This document shows, in pieces, positions 6,988 through 16,853 of a DNA stretch of 34,871 nucleotides. Location of the stretch: NCBI GenBank assembly GCA_947461635.1, contig CANHMH010000009.1, forward strand, positions 1 to 34,871. Direction: 5' to 3'. The DNA is from Flavobacteriales bacterium (GTDB lineage Bacteria > Bacteroidota > Bacteroidia > Flavobacteriales_D > Crocinitomicaceae). A program made the translations under genes and the position numbers. The stretch's first letter is position 1. The number at the start of each line of letters is the position of its first letter. The notes under the pieces are model-generated. The model worked only from the letters and a program-made list of their open reading frames with translations. It was not told where the DNA came from and did not search any database.

Positions 6988-9126
6988 ATGAAACATTTAC
7001 TACTTTTAAATGGCTTATTTCTTTCTCTTAGCATTTTTGCTCAGGTACCGAGTTATGTTCCACAATATGGACTTTTAGGTTACTATCCATTCAACGGAAA
7101 TCCTAATGATGTCAGTGCGAATGCCGCAAACTTAACAAACAATGCTGCTGTGCTAACAACGGATCGTTTTGGGACTGCCAATGCGGCATATTCCTTTAAT
7201 GGTGTCAATCAGAATTTAATCAATAACACACCAAACTTTACATTTAATCCCGCTTCAAGTTTCACGTATTCTTTTTGGTATAATCGCAATGTAACATCCG
7301 TAAACGGTGTGTTAATTATGAACGCGACAAATGCTGCTGGAAACTTTATTTGGATTTTTCAAGCCGGAGCGACAAATTCACAGTTCGGAACGAATAAACA
7401 ACAATCAGCATGGATTTGGGCACCAACACCTTCCACAACAAGCGTTTGGACACACATCGTTTGTGTTTATAATGCAGGGACAATGACCTTATACAAAAAC
7501 AATGTTCAAGTAGCAACGGCAACCTTTACTCACACAAATGTAACGAGTGCAAATATGCCATTGTACATCGGACGTGGTGTTGGAGGAGATTTCTACAACG
7601 GCAAAATGGATGATGTCGGGATTTGGAATCGTGCTTTAACAGCTTGTGAAATCAATGATTTATACAACAGTTCAAATTCCCTAACAGGAGTAAGCGCTGG
7701 ACAAGATGTGAGTAGTTGTAATAACCAAGCCATAACATTGAATGGATCTGGAGCACTTAATTATTTCTGGAACCAAAGTGTATCGAATGGTGTTCCCTTC
7801 ACTCCTACTTCCAATGGAACGTATCTGGTCACTGGATTCAATGCGAATGGTTGTTCTGCTTGGGATGAAACCAATGTTACGTTGGGACAATTGAGCATCA
7901 ATGCCGGACAAGATTTAGCTGTTTGTCCAGGAGATACCGTCACCCTTTCAGCAACGGGAGCGCAAACATACACATGGACAAACTCGGTCACGAATAACCA
8001 ACCGTTTATTGCCACTCAAAGCGGAACCTACATCGCAACTGGAGTTGATGGATCTTGTACGGATACGGATACTTTACAGATTAATGTTCTTCCCTTGCCA
8101 CAAATTAACGCAGGAAACGACACCGTACTTTGTGCTGGTGGAATTGTTACCTTGAATGCTGCCGGCGGACAAAACTACCAATGGAATAATAACGTACAAA
8201 ATGCTGTGCCATTCACCGCTTTCAATAGTGCTTCTTACATCGTTACTGGATTCAGTCCGGCTGGATGTGCAAATCAAGATACGGTCGAAGTTGTGGCGAA
8301 TCCAGTGCCAAATATCAATGCTGGTAATGATGTTTCCACATGTTCAGGTCAAGCAGTCGTGCTAACGGCAATTGGTGGATTCAATTTACAATGGAACAAT
8401 GGCGTACAAGATGGTGTTCCTTTTAATCCAACAGGAAATGGAACATACGTCGTAACTGGAATGAGCAACGATGGTTGTTACGGATCAGACACTTTGATTC
8501 TTACCGTAGGAACTTTGCCAGATATTTCAGCCGGAAATGATCAAGTAATTTGTCAAGGTGATTCAGTGGTTTTAGCTGCCAATGGAGGTGCGACCTACCA
8601 ATGGGGTAATGGCGCCACGAATGGAACTGCCATTTTCCCAACGCAGTCAATAACGCTAGGCGTAACCGGTTTTAGCGGAGCAGGATGCAGTAACACGGAT
8701 TCTATGACGATTACCGTAAATAATCCAAGTCAAAGTACAATCTCTGCGAATGGAATCGACACATACACACTAAATGGAACTACTTATACAAACTCAGGTA
8801 CGTACACACAAGTCTTGACAAATGCACAAGGTTGTGATAGTACAATTACCTTGATTCTATCCATGGATTACACAGGTATTTCTGAAACGCAATTCACTTC
8901 AATGAACGTTTACCCAAATCCAACAAACGGAGAAATCAACTTGATTGTTCCAGAAGGAATGATAGGTAAAAATGCTATTTTAACTGATATTTCAGGGAAG
9001 AAAATCGCAGCAATTTCATTAAACGATGCGCTAAGTAAATTTAATTTATCCGGATTTTCGAACGGTGTTTACTTCATTGCAATGGATGAAAAAGGCGCTG
9101 CGGCTATTCGAGTGGTGAAGGAATGA
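6988..9126 (+). CDS. LamG/concanavalin-like domain surface protein with five ~70-aa repeats and a C-terminal T9SS type A sorting domain
   Basis: Signal peptide MKHLLLLNGLFLSLSIFAQ; YYPFNGNPNDVSANAANLTNN...FTYSFWYNR...PLYIGRGVGGDFYNGKMDDVGIWNRALT (LamG/laminin-G-3 pattern); repeats of (N/S)AGxD...C...W...TYxVTG...GC; C-terminal VYPNPTNGEINL...ISGKKIAAISL...SGFSNGVYFIAM. Confidence 0.93.
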   Translation: MKHLLLLNGLFLSLSIFAQVPSYVPQYGLLGYYPFNGNPNDVSANAANLTNNAAVLTTDRFGTANAAYSFNGVNQNLINNTPNFTFNPASSFTYSFWYNRNVTSVNGVLIMNATNAAGNFIWIFQAGATNSQFGTNKQQSAWIWAPTPSTTSVWTHIVCVYNAGTMTLYKNNVQVATATFTHTNVTSANMPLYIGRGVGGDFYNGKMDDVGIWNRALTACEINDLYNSSNSLTGVSAGQDVSSCNNQAITLNGSGALNYFWNQSVSNGVPFTPTSNGTYLVTGFNANGCSAWDETNVTLGQLSINAGQDLAVCPGDTVTLSATGAQTYTWTNSVTNNQPFIATQSGTYIATGVDGSCTDTDTLQINVLPLPQINAGNDTVLCAGGIVTLNAAGGQNYQWNNNVQNAVPFTAFNSASYIVTGFSPAGCANQDTVEVVANPVPNINAGNDVSTCSGQAVVLTAIGGFNLQWNNGVQDGVPFNPTGNGTYVVTGMSNDGCYGSDTLILTVGTLPDISAGNDQVICQGDSVVLAANGGATYQWGNGATNGTAIFPTQSITLGVTGFSGAGCSNTDSMTITVNNPSQSTISANGIDTYTLNGTTYTNSGTYTQVLTNAQGCDSTITLILSMDYTGISETQFTSMNVYPNPTNGEINLIVPEGMIGKNAILTDISGKKIAAISLNDALSKFNLSGFSNGVYFIAMDEKGAAAIRVVKE

Positions 9127-12922: not shown

Positions 12923-13129
12923 TTATTCTTCCCCAACCTTATTCATCGTCGCTAAAAACGTTTCGACTTCCTGCGCGCCACTGACCGCATATTTTCGATC
13001 AAACACAAAAAAAGGAACTCCTCTAACGCCAAATTGTTGGGCTAGGTGTATTTCGGAATCTATCTCTTGTGAAAACTTACTCAAAGGTTTTAAACTAATT
13101 GAAATTGGCAGAGTCGATGTTATTTTGGA
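12923..13129 (-). pseudogene. Displaced 3'-terminal fragment of a DsbA/FrnE-like gene
   Basis: Minus-strand translation ...SKFSQEIDSEIHLAQQFGVRGVPFFVFDRKYAVSGAQEVETFLATMNKVGEE* matches the C-terminus of the intact gene at 16102-16737; the frame upstream ends at a TGA; no N-terminal CxxC region. Confidence 0.85.
12953..13044. repeat. Direct repeat copy 1 (92 bp), partner of 16135-16226
   Basis: 88/92 matching positions by eye, including a 53-bp perfect match 12966-13018 = 16148-16200, same orientation. Confidence 0.93.
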
Positions 13130-13322
13130 TCAGATAAAAGCAAAAAGATAACACTTATGGCAAGAGGTAAAGAATGCCAAGGTGTATTTTTAAGTAAATG
13201 TTTTAAAAATCAAATAAAATTAATAGTTTTGACTTAACACGTAAACCCAACTAATGAAAAGTTCACTTTAGTTTGACAACCTATAAGAGATAGAACTTTG
13301 GCAATTGCACTAAAATATATCA

Positions 13323-14747
13323 ATGACTAAATTAATTATGAGAAATCTAATCATCTTTACTTTTCTATTTTCAAGTTTCGTTCAAGCGCAAACTTTCACA
13401 ATTTTTGAAAACAACAAAAAAAACAAAGCTCTATTTGACTACAATGACCCAAATTCTTTGGTGAGTATGTTGGTTCAAAATCAAGGGTTAATTACTTCAG
13501 ATGGTTTGCAATGTGAATTATCAAGTGAAGGGTTTTATTCAATTGATGGGTTGAAGAATTATGCATTGTCCGGTGAGCATTGGGAAATAGAAGGAGATGA
13601 TGCCAATGCCACAAAGACAGTTTTATTACGTAATTCAGACTCCGAAAGCTTTGACGATTGGTTTACGAGACTTACGACTCAGGGGGATGTTCCAGATTAT
13701 GATCCTGAAGTATTTGGTGCATTGACAAGAACTGATAAATTAATTTTGGAGAAGCAATATAATTCGGCTTTGGTTGGTCTTAGTATAAAATTACCTCCGG
13801 TAAATTGTTATTATGATGTCCATGACATTGAATTAATCTTTGTCAATGCTAACAACATTTATTTCGCGCAGAAATCAGCATATGAAAATAAATTTTTTAT
13901 TTGTTTGCAATTAACCCTCGAAGAACTCGCTCAACTGGGTAGATTCGATTATTTGAATGAGGAATTATCAAAGAAAATTACCGGTAAATTACGTGAATTT
14001 CAATTGCAGAAAAGAGAAATTGATTCACCGGAATACCCTGTATACGCAATTGAAGAATATTCGAATCAGCATCGAAATGCAACTCTTTTCGATGATTTTA
14101 ATAAAGATGAATTTAAATACTACAACCAATCAAGTTCAATTAAACGAATTTTCCCAGGTACGCAATGGGAAATACAAGGAGATGATGTCAATGCAACCAT
14201 GACAATATTAACTCGTGATTCAGATTCAGAAAAATTTGAAGATTGGTATATGAGATTAACGACTCAAGGCAGTGCTCCATATTTTGACCCTGAAGTATTT
14301 GGCTACTTGACTAGGACTGATAAATTAATTTTGAAAAAGCAATATGAGGCTTGTGGCGAAAATCAAGCATTGCTACAACCTGACTCAGAATTAACCTATT
14401 GGGTTGATTATCCGAATCCTGCCATTTATCTTCAGCGTAATTTTGAAACCGATTCAACGGGTAAATTCGCAACAGAATTTAGTCAACTTTTAATTACGGA
14501 ACGCTTAGAAAACAAAAAAGGATATTCTCAAAAACCCCAAGTTTTAATGGCTTTTGGTGACACGTTTGCATCGATAAATCAGGAAATTTTAGATCTACTC
14601 AAGGAGGAACTTATGCAATTTGAAATGAAGCAAGACTTTGCTTGGAAAAAAATAATTAACTCGAAAAAAGGGAGAATTGTAAAGAATGATGAACTAAAGA
14701 AAATGATTCATTGCTTTGAAATTAACGATAATGGAATTGAATATTAA
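13323..14747 (+). CDS. Secreted protein of unknown function with an internal ~65-aa duplication; possibly distantly GldN-like
   Basis: Signal peptide ...NLIIFTFLFSSFVQAQ; GEHWEIEGDDANATKTVLLRNSDSESFDDWFTRLTTQGDVPDYDPEVFGALTRTDKLILEKQY is repeated as GTQWEIQGDDVNATMTILTRDSDSEKFEDWYMRLTTQGSAPYFDPEVFGYLTRTDKLILKKQY. Confidence 0.75.
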   Translation: MTKLIMRNLIIFTFLFSSFVQAQTFTIFENNKKNKALFDYNDPNSLVSMLVQNQGLITSDGLQCELSSEGFYSIDGLKNYALSGEHWEIEGDDANATKTVLLRNSDSESFDDWFTRLTTQGDVPDYDPEVFGALTRTDKLILEKQYNSALVGLSIKLPPVNCYYDVHDIELIFVNANNIYFAQKSAYENKFFICLQLTLEELAQLGRFDYLNEELSKKITGKLREFQLQKREIDSPEYPVYAIEEYSNQHRNATLFDDFNKDEFKYYNQSSSIKRIFPGTQWEIQGDDVNATMTILTRDSDSEKFEDWYMRLTTQGSAPYFDPEVFGYLTRTDKLILKKQYEACGENQALLQPDSELTYWVDYPNPAIYLQRNFETDSTGKFATEFSQLLITERLENKKGYSQKPQVLMAFGDTFASINQEILDLLKEELMQFEMKQDFAWKKIINSKKGRIVKNDELKKMIHCFEINDNGIEY

Positions 14748-14749
14748 CC

Positions 14750-15334
14750 ATGAAAAAACTATTTTTTTTAACGACATTGCTATCATTTATCGAATTAAAT
14801 GCGCAGGTCCATGTTGTAGTAGAACAACCCGAATATCCAATTCTTTATCAAGGGTATGATAATTTTATCATTCCTGAGGCAACGGGCGCTGAAAACAATA
14901 GAATTTCAGCAGAAGGAACGACTGTAACTCCTACTACTTTTCAAGGTGAAAAAGGATATTTTGTTAATCCTGGCTCAGGTGTAAGATCGGTCTCAATTAT
15001 TCATGAAGCAAAAATTAATGGGGAATGGGTTCTTTTCGACACTTCTTTTTATGCCGTCAGGCCCTTCCCGAAACCAGAAATTCACCAACAAACCATTTCA
15101 AAATTAAGCGGTGCTAAATTTAGTTGTGGTTTGCCTATGAATGCACCTATTCGACATTCATTTGAGGTGCTCGGTGTAAACATACAGGACCAAAATTATA
15201 CTGGAGGTACGATACCAGGGACAGCAGTTAAATCAATTAAAGTGGGAAGCCATGTTGGTGCAACCTTTAAAGTTAAAGATGTTCTATCTGGTGAGGAATT
15301 CACGATTATGTCATTATTTAAAGTCACCAATTAA
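14750..15334 (+). CDS. Secreted protein resembling stand-alone GldM C-terminal periplasmic domains
   Basis: Signal MKKLFFLTTLLSFIELNAQ; PILYQGYDNFIIP...ISAEGTTVTP...YFVNPGSGVRSVSIIHEAKINGEW...PFPKPEI...SLFKVTN, a GldM-C-like layout from memory of the family. Confidence 0.6.
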   Translation: MKKLFFLTTLLSFIELNAQVHVVVEQPEYPILYQGYDNFIIPEATGAENNRISAEGTTVTPTTFQGEKGYFVNPGSGVRSVSIIHEAKINGEWVLFDTSFYAVRPFPKPEIHQQTISKLSGAKFSCGLPMNAPIRHSFEVLGVNIQDQNYTGGTIPGTAVKSIKVGSHVGATFKVKDVLSGEEFTIMSLFKVTN

Positions 15335-15948
15335 TGAAAGCAACTATGAAAATCAAAATTGCGTTTTTATTGATATTTATCAATTCTTGGATAAACATTC
15401 AATCACAAGTGCAAAAAGCTCTTGCCATGCCCGAATATAATATACTTTACCAAAATTATAAGAATGTAATTTTTCCTGCTTCAAAAGACGGCTTTGTAAA
15501 TACCCCAATTGCTGAAAATGCATTAGTTGAAGAATTTGAGATTGAAGGAAGAACTAAGGGATTCATTATCGTACCGAAAAAGCTAGGTGAATTAGTTGTT
15601 ATCTTTCCAGTAGCGAATCAAACTGGAAAAATAATTGGAACTGATAGCATTGAATATTTCGTGCGGCGAGTTCCAACACCCATTGTTTCTACCTCAAAGA
15701 TATCGAAATCGACAGGATCAATAATACATGTTGGTCAAAGCGAAGATAGCCCTCTTAATATAAGTTATAACGTGATTTCCATCGAAGTTTTGGGCGTTGA
15801 TAATGGAGTATGTTTTGGTCCGAATATTCCAGGAACGGTTGTGTCAAAATTAAAAGTAGGCAAGAGAATTGGAATCAACGTTACTTTAAAAAACGGTTTT
15901 ACGGGAGGTATTGAGATCATTCCTGGAACTTTAGAAGTTACTAACTAA
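15334..15948 (+). CDS. Second secreted GldM-C-terminal-domain-like protein, paralogous to the upstream one
   Basis: EYNILYQNYKNVIFP...EYFVRRVPTPIVSTSKISKSTGSI...SIEVLGVDNG...IPGTVVSKLKVGKRIG...LEVTN; start overlaps the upstream stop (TAATG). Shares EYxILYQxYxNxIxP, IPGTxVxxxKVGxxxG and VTN with the preceding protein. Confidence 0.6.
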   Translation: MKATMKIKIAFLLIFINSWINIQSQVQKALAMPEYNILYQNYKNVIFPASKDGFVNTPIAENALVEEFEIEGRTKGFIIVPKKLGELVVIFPVANQTGKIIGTDSIEYFVRRVPTPIVSTSKISKSTGSIIHVGQSEDSPLNISYNVISIEVLGVDNGVCFGPNIPGTVVSKLKVGKRIGINVTLKNGFTGGIEIIPGTLEVTN

Positions 15949-16101: not shown

Positions 16102-16737
16102 TTACTTTTCACTTTGTACCTGCTCCATTGTTTTTAAAAACGTATCAACTTCCTGCGCGCCACTGACCGCATATTTTCGATCAAACACAAAAAAAGGAAC
16201 ACCTCTAACGCCAAATTGCTGGGCTAACTTTATATCTGCTTCAATTTCTTCCGTGTATTGACTACTGAGGATTTTCACATCCAGCGCCGTTGTATTCAAA
16301 CCAACTTCGGATGCCAAATCTACCAGTAAATTGACGTCATCAATGTTTTTTCCTTCGACAAAATGTGCTTCAAATAAACGCTCTTCCATTTCATGTTGGA
16401 ATCCTTGAATGCGCGCTTCGTGAAGCAATTGATGGGCTTTCATGGTATTCGCCAAGACTACTTTTTCAAATTGATAATCAAGTCCAATTACATTTCCTGA
16501 TTCCGTAATTTTAGCCATCATTTGGCGCGCTTGCTCCTCCGGGAATCCCTTTATTTCAGCTAGGTATTGAAAGATGGAAACGGATGGATTGCTCACTAAA
16601 TACGGATTCAATAGAAAGGACTTCCATTCAATTTCAACATCAGAATTTCCCTCAAATTGTGCTAAAGCCTTATCGAATTTTCGTTTGCCCATGTAACAAA
16701 ATGGACAAGCAATGTCGCTCCATATTTCTATTTTCAT
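16102..16737 (-). CDS. DsbA family oxidoreductase (FrnE-like)
   Basis: MKIEIWSDIACPFCYMGKRKFDKAL (CPFC), GVRGVPFFVFDRKYAVSGAQ. Start at 16737 fits the family better than the track start at 16839. Confidence 0.9.
   Translation of the reverse strand: MKIEIWSDIACPFCYMGKRKFDKALAQFEGNSDVEIEWKSFLLNPYLVSNPSVSIFQYLAEIKGFPEEQARQMMAKITESGNVIGLDYQFEKVVLANTMKAHQLLHEARIQGFQHEMEERLFEAHFVEGKNIDDVNLLVDLASEVGLNTTALDVKILSSQYTEEIEADIKLAQQFGVRGVPFFVFDRKYAVSGAQEVDTFLKTMEQVQSEK
16135..16226. repeat. Direct repeat copy 2 (92 bp), inside the intact dsbA/frnE-like gene
   Basis: Four mismatches relative to 12953-13044. Confidence 0.93.
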
Positions 16738-16853
16738 ACCTTTAATTTTAATAAGGAAAAATATCCGATTGAATCGTTCGCGAATGTACTGATAAAGTGC
16801 TTCGAAGTAAACAACAATTTGGATAATTTCTTGTTTCATTTAAAACAGAAAAC

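Follow-up and report, generated by a model that had tools for sequence, protein, structure and literature searches.

A putatively mobile operon pairs stand-alone GldM tip domains with a doubled GldN-core-like protein in a member of the Crocinitomicaceae

The genome of a Flavobacteriales bacterium of the family Crocinitomicaceae encodes two consecutive proteins, P1 and P2, that consist of domains D3 and D4 of the T9SS motor-shaft protein GldM/PorM and nothing more, and that are made as free, Sec-exported proteins. Their genes lie within a 34,871-nucleotide stretch of contig CANHMH010000009.1, referred to here as the window, directly after the gene for PN, a Sec-exported protein whose sequence is read as a tandem pair of units akin to the core of GldN/PorN, the ring/track protein. 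The operon may represent a mobile accessory module in which soluble proteins recreate the interface between motor tip and ring and work on, or next to, the resident machine, a proposal that we hold with about equal belief and doubt.

The GldM-derived proteins and their full-length counterpart are as follows.

14750..15334, plus strand: P1, 194 aa, stand-alone GldM D3-D4 protein, signal peptide at about residues 1-19
15334..15948, plus strand: P2, 204 aa, second stand-alone GldM D3-D4 protein, signal peptide at about residues 1-25
Contig 30, locus L011: full-length GldM of the same genome, 591 aa

The two open reading frames, each with a signal peptide, were found as the initial annotation had described them. 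Direct reading of the leaders identifies Sec-type signals without a lipobox cysteine (...LNAQ/VHVV in P1 and ...IQSQ/VQKA in P2), and the conserved D3 domain begins straight after the cleavable leader, with nothing else before it. The N-terminal transmembrane (TM) helix of GldM, which contacts GldL, is absent and the Sec leader stands in its place, in agreement with the earlier proposal that both proteins lack the GldM membrane anchor. A Pfam profile search of P1 and P2 returned no match to PF12081 or PF21601, and domains D1 and D2 are absent.

P1 and P2 are homologous to each other (32% identity, E=1e-23), and the motifs originally quoted as common to both are present and conserved among their relatives. 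P1 shares 41% identity with residues 416-591 of the GldM of the same genome (E=7e-39) and P2 shares 46% with residues 415-591 (E=8e-41); the closest GldM to P2 is the genome's own. The suggested resemblance to the last periplasmic domains of GldM/PorM is borne out by these D3-D4 matches, by profile and by predicted fold. P1 matches the GldM equivalog model TIGR03517 over its D3 part (E=1.5e-5), with a score of 24 bits that lies below the equivalog cut-off of 180, as is expected because P1 is a fragment of the full-length protein. The AlphaFold2 model of P1, built with 27 relatives, comprises two beta domains with a mean pLDDT of 85.8 and low confidence only around the leader. Its six best PDB matches are all PorM/GldM C-terminal structures, headed by the PorM C-terminal part 6ey6 (E=2e-6), GldM 6ey4, PorM 6ey5 and 7cmg, after which generic Ig-like proteins appear. 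The TM-scores against these structures are moderate (0.45-0.58), so the match is one of fold and domain order, not of exact arrangement. A GldM-profile match alone was dropped as proof of D4, since Pfam GldM_4th does not reach P1 or P2; the presence of D4 is instead settled by comparison with the genome's own GldM and by fold.

Stand-alone D3-D4 open reading frames of 190-260 aa occur in several genera of the window's family. The idea that they are confined to this family proved wrong: PF21602 also finds a few in other Bacteroidota families, sometimes in tandem, so that stand-alone GldM tips constitute a recurring, broader phenomenon. One such pair is listed below.

L155, 4679-6007 of genome G415 (one contig), plus strand: tandem stand-alone GldM D3-D4 pair, other Bacteroidota family

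A custom D3-D4 profile gave no match outside the window's family, save a weak one in G412 that resembles a signal peptide. In the loci read outside the family, L155 included, no GldN-like gene was found beside a stand-alone D3-D4 gene, and the pairing with PN was seen only within the family. Our literature search, which covered mostly material outside subscription, found neither stand-alone D3-D4 proteins nor their pairing with PN described; 'extra orthologues of porM' in F. johnsoniae are mentioned without description (PMC5790014).

Other arrangements of GldM and GldN parts were also noted. A 427-aa putative lipoprotein at L016 4747-6027 (minus strand, genome G013) consists of GldM D1-D2 and lacks the GldM TM helix, D3 and D4, representing another detached GldM fragment, and a TonB C-terminal domain is fused to GldM D3 at L156 4998-5666 (minus strand, genome G449; PF03544 and PF21602). 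Genome G120, from another genus of the window's family, carries a duplicated gldMN region, with two gldN-type genes in tandem at L151 3829-5935 (minus strand) and, elsewhere on that contig, a pair of gldM-type genes separated by about 4 kb.

The gene upstream of P1 encodes a protein with the following features.

13323..14747, plus strand: PN, 474 aa, Sec-exported, two tandem units related to the GldN core
13572..13760, plus strand: PN repeat copy 1, GldN-like segment, direct DNA repeat of 189 nt with 79% identity, matches the insert of the genome's own GldN
14157..14345, plus strand: PN repeat copy 2, GldN-like segment, direct DNA repeat (79%), matches the insert of the genome's own GldN
Contig 30, locus L011 2916-4217, minus strand: full-length GldN of the same genome, 434 aa

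A profile search with PN gave no family match above the cut-off, and none from the GldN profiles PF19841 and TIGR03523. In BLAST comparisons with residues 179-263 of the genome's own GldN, the first PN repeat is 64% identical over 85 residues (E=2e-30) and the second 53% over 77 residues (E=3e-23). In profile comparisons, the halves of PN match one another (p=8e-11), and each matches the GldN alignment of the genus (p=6e-13 and 3e-8); this alignment was restricted to the genus so that the insert columns were kept. PN lacks the N-terminal READVxWSKR...REK and C-terminal EHDLW parts of GldN, whose counterparts are present in the genome's own GldN, and the profiles together with these missing termini rule out PN as a full GldN. 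In the PorKN structure, the PorN termini are placed against PorK and the inner ring face (PMC12635249).

The GldN region matched by the repeats is among the most variable parts of the protein, with a mean pairwise identity of 28% in the genus, against 75-79% for the conserved segments that follow it. The canonical GldN of the genus (L011 2916-4217, minus strand) contains a hypervariable insert of roughly 90 residues between conserved flanks; the insert is missing in the family's other genera, whose GldN is shorter by about 90 residues in total. In the more divergent loci of G055, G077, G088 and G090, the alignment of PN with GldN extends well outside the insert region (in G055, PN 251-484 with GldN 129-335, E=1e-17, and PN 529-624 with GldN 186-280), and PN-like proteins of two other genera (G314 and G307) match, in the same place, the GldN of related genera that lack the insert. 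The repeat matches and these long alignments in relatives suggest that PN is a doubled GldN core. The AlphaFold2 model of the window PN is of low confidence (pLDDT 64) and has no PDB match at E<=0.001, so its GldN-like fold rests on sequence.

The PN repeats are 53-66% identical to the GldN region of their own genome, compared with the genus mean of 28% for that region. Among identical residues, codon identity between the repeats and gldN is 0.49 and 0.59, where codon usage predicts 0.50. Recent gene conversion between the repeats and gldN is thus unsupported, as agreement in synonymous codons barely exceeds, or does not exceed, the level expected from codon usage. High protein identity with codons near expectation points to long-held constraint at the protein level, not to recent DNA copying.

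The genes of the operon are tightly arranged. The PN stop at 14747 and the P1 ATG at 14750 are coupled at 2 nt, and the P1 stop overlaps the P2 ATG at 15334 (TAATG). A possible promoter element precedes them.

13224..13231, plus strand: TAGTTTTG, possible Bacteroidota -7 promoter box, 92 nt before PN, a weak candidate as such octamers occur in near chance number in the window

Elsewhere in the window, a LamG-domain protein with a T9SS type A sorting tail (6988-9126, plus strand; PF18962, TIGR04183) is likely a T9SS cargo near the cassette.

Conservation of the pairing was surveyed by searching 90 genomes of the genus, reading the loci and measuring the gaps. In 20 testable loci, PN is a separate gene and there is space for an adjoining one; in 15 of them a stand-alone D3-D4 gene comes directly after PN on the same strand, with a gap of -20 to 64 nt. 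Five PN genes lack such a partner, and roughly half of the stand-alone D3-D4 genes occur without an adjacent PN. Since most of the genomes are incomplete metagenome assemblies, these counts are lower bounds. A second PN and D3-D4 cassette is present in the same genome (L022 5226-7263, minus strand, contig 18) and is related to another species lineage than the window cassette. The two parts also occur within one polypeptide, in L100 as a 656-aa protein with D3-D4 at residues 1-183 and PN-like units after it, and likewise in L053/L120. The 725-aa proteins of L042, L043 and L046 are probably PN/D3-D4 fusions as well, with a weak N-terminal profile match (p=4e-5).

At two loci, a motor-type gene adjoins the module.

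L042 7618-9882, minus strand: GldL-GldM fusion, 755 aa, PF22827 and PF12081
L043 1878-3329, plus strand: GldL-GldM fusion, 484 aa, PF22827 and PF12081, ends after D1

In both, the fusion gene precedes PN and two D3-D4 genes. This gene order would fit a second T9SS-like energy chain, in which PN, P1 and P2 serve as periplasmic coupling parts of a specialised motor; depending on the species, the drive would come from a dedicated GldL-GldM fusion or from the resident GldLM. Because the motor protein of L043 stops after D1, its D3-D4 would need to be supplied in trans. However, most cassettes, including both of this genome, have no motor or GldK-like gene adjoining, and PN lacks the GldN regions thought to hold GldN in the ring. 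We consider such a chain unlikely. The GldL model has no match in the window's own genome, nor in any control, and the contig carrying its gldM ends there. On contigs 49 and 146 of G000 (L163 and L164), GldK-like matches lie in frames of 801 and 884 aa, far longer than the 408-position GldK model.

The origin of the D3-D4 genes was examined in a tree of 23 stand-alone sequences and 29 GldM tips over about 196 columns, with the four most divergent rows left out for their long branches. A single origin of all stand-alone D3-D4 genes is rejected (AU p=1.2e-5), and well-supported branches force at least three changes, which shows that D3-D4 genes arose from GldM more than once; P1 and P2 as one clade gave p=0.44. 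This repeated origin would also fit repeated partial duplication, in which the genes are ordinary, functionless fragments of gldM and gldN. Such a reading is very improbable, as the frames are intact, the signal peptides look functional, the genes are tightly coupled and their neighbourhood is conserved across species. Moreover, dN/dS values of 0.10-0.31 for PN and the D3-D4 genes reflect purifying selection and indicate that both are maintained.

Within a cassette, PN and the D3-D4 gene paired with it usually resemble the GldM/GldN of one and the same lineage. The window cassette matches its own genome, those of G059, G006 and G065 match the G059 type, and the second cassette of G000 matches the G056/G066 type. 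The second cassette of the window's genome is closer to the GldM/GldN of another lineage, with the resident GldM only at rank 20, so matching the resident machine is no general rule. In most species pairs, dS between D3-D4 genes is several-fold below that of gldM and gldN. For G000 and G016 it is 0.38 against 1.67 and 2.33, and for the window P1 and P2 compared with G005 it is 0.80 and 0.75 against 2.83 and 2.74, where values above 1 are saturated. The low D3-D4 values point to transfer between species.

The insertion in the window is bounded by dsbA sequence on both sides.

12926..13068, minus strand: remnant of a dsbA 3' end adjoining GH3, left edge of the insertion, 86% to the dsbA 3' end of G063 and 85% to that of the window's own dsbA
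16102..16839, minus strand: intact dsbA-like gene (PF01323), right bound of the insertion

The cassette therefore sits between two dsbA ends, and the remnant at its left edge has the appearance of a recombination scar. In G063 (L174), dsbA lies adjacent to GH3 with no cassette between them, representing an empty site. Together with the low dS, the empty site and the scar argue for a mobile operon. The G+C content of the cassette is 0.339 compared with 0.390 for the rest of the window, where another stretch is equally low.

Mobility of this kind could also belong to a conflict element, a rapidly changing set of dominant-negative or decoy proteins that disrupts T9SS or gliding, for instance to keep out phages dependent on the gliding machinery or to blunt an attack on the machine. 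The low D3-D4 dS, the empty site and duplicated dsbA end, the G+C difference, the fast amino-acid change and the similarity to foreign lineages in several genomes are all compatible with it. In contrast, no phage, integrase, toxin or defence gene adjoins the cassettes in the loci read, and P1, P2 and PN carry Sec signals alone and lack a T9SS sorting tail, so that their action should be confined to the producing cell. This explanation appears distinctly improbable to us.

The preferred reading, a soluble accessory module, draws its meaning from the fact that PN is built from units resembling the GldN core, the contact of D4. PorM D4 alone is sufficient for PorN binding in a two-hybrid test, and the PorM periplasmic domain binds PorN with a KD of about 1 uM (PMC5790014). 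A low-confidence model places the PorM tip, mostly D4, in the cleft that separates adjacent PorN subunits (PMC12635249). Since D4 binds PorN, the operon would encode two sides of one contact while omitting the membrane motor and the ring-building parts. The module may thus comprise detached copies of two mutually contacting T9SS/gliding parts, the GldM shaft tip (P1 and P2) and a doubled GldN core (PN), which would be exported by Sec and remain soluble in the periplasm. By analogy with PorM and PorN, PN likely binds P1 and P2 through the GldN-core/D4 contact. These proteins would be unable to build a motor or ring themselves, because they lack the GldM anchor, D1, D2 and the conserved GldN ends, which would leave them to act on, or beside, the resident machine. 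There they may occupy or bridge the motor-tip/ring contact, changing the number of motors engaged or what the motors drive; we put forward such modulation of T9SS/gliding only tentatively. More speculatively, a self-contained, mobile, T9SS-derived sub-complex could serve as a clutch or coupling switch on T9SS/gliding, or form the coupling component of a second proton-driven machine powered by a GldL-GldM fusion motor of its own.

The operon bears on how force passes from the GldLM/PorLM motor to the ring/track, a step for which existing modelling of the PorM-PorN contact carries little confidence (PMC12635249). Both sides of this motor/ring contact occur naturally as small soluble proteins that are co-encoded and sometimes fused. 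P1, P2 and PN could serve as naturally occurring reagents in structural work on the interface and in dominant-negative assays. A mobile module of secretion-motor parts, if confirmed, would represent a new layer of T9SS control or conflict.

Compared with known systems, P1 and P2 resemble the stand-alone GldM C-terminal proteins of other Bacteroidota, such as those of L155, in being Sec-exported, D3-D4-only and sometimes in tandem, whereas the loci read there have no GldN-like neighbour. They resemble GldM/PorM (TIGR03517; PF12081, PF21601, PF21602, PF12080) in D3-D4 sequence and predicted fold, but differ in lacking the TM helix, D1, D2 and the GldL contact, and in being free, Sec-exported and present as two in tandem. 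The PN repeats are similar to residues 179-263 of the genome's own GldN (TIGR03523; PF19841), and relatives of PN to GldN 129-335, although PN carries two core units in tandem, misses the conserved ends and goes unrecognised by GldN profiles. GldO, the GldN paralogue of Flavobacterium johnsoniae, is a near full-length GldN and partly redundant with it. PN is likewise an accessory GldN paralogue, distinguished by a doubled core that is paired with detached GldM tips.
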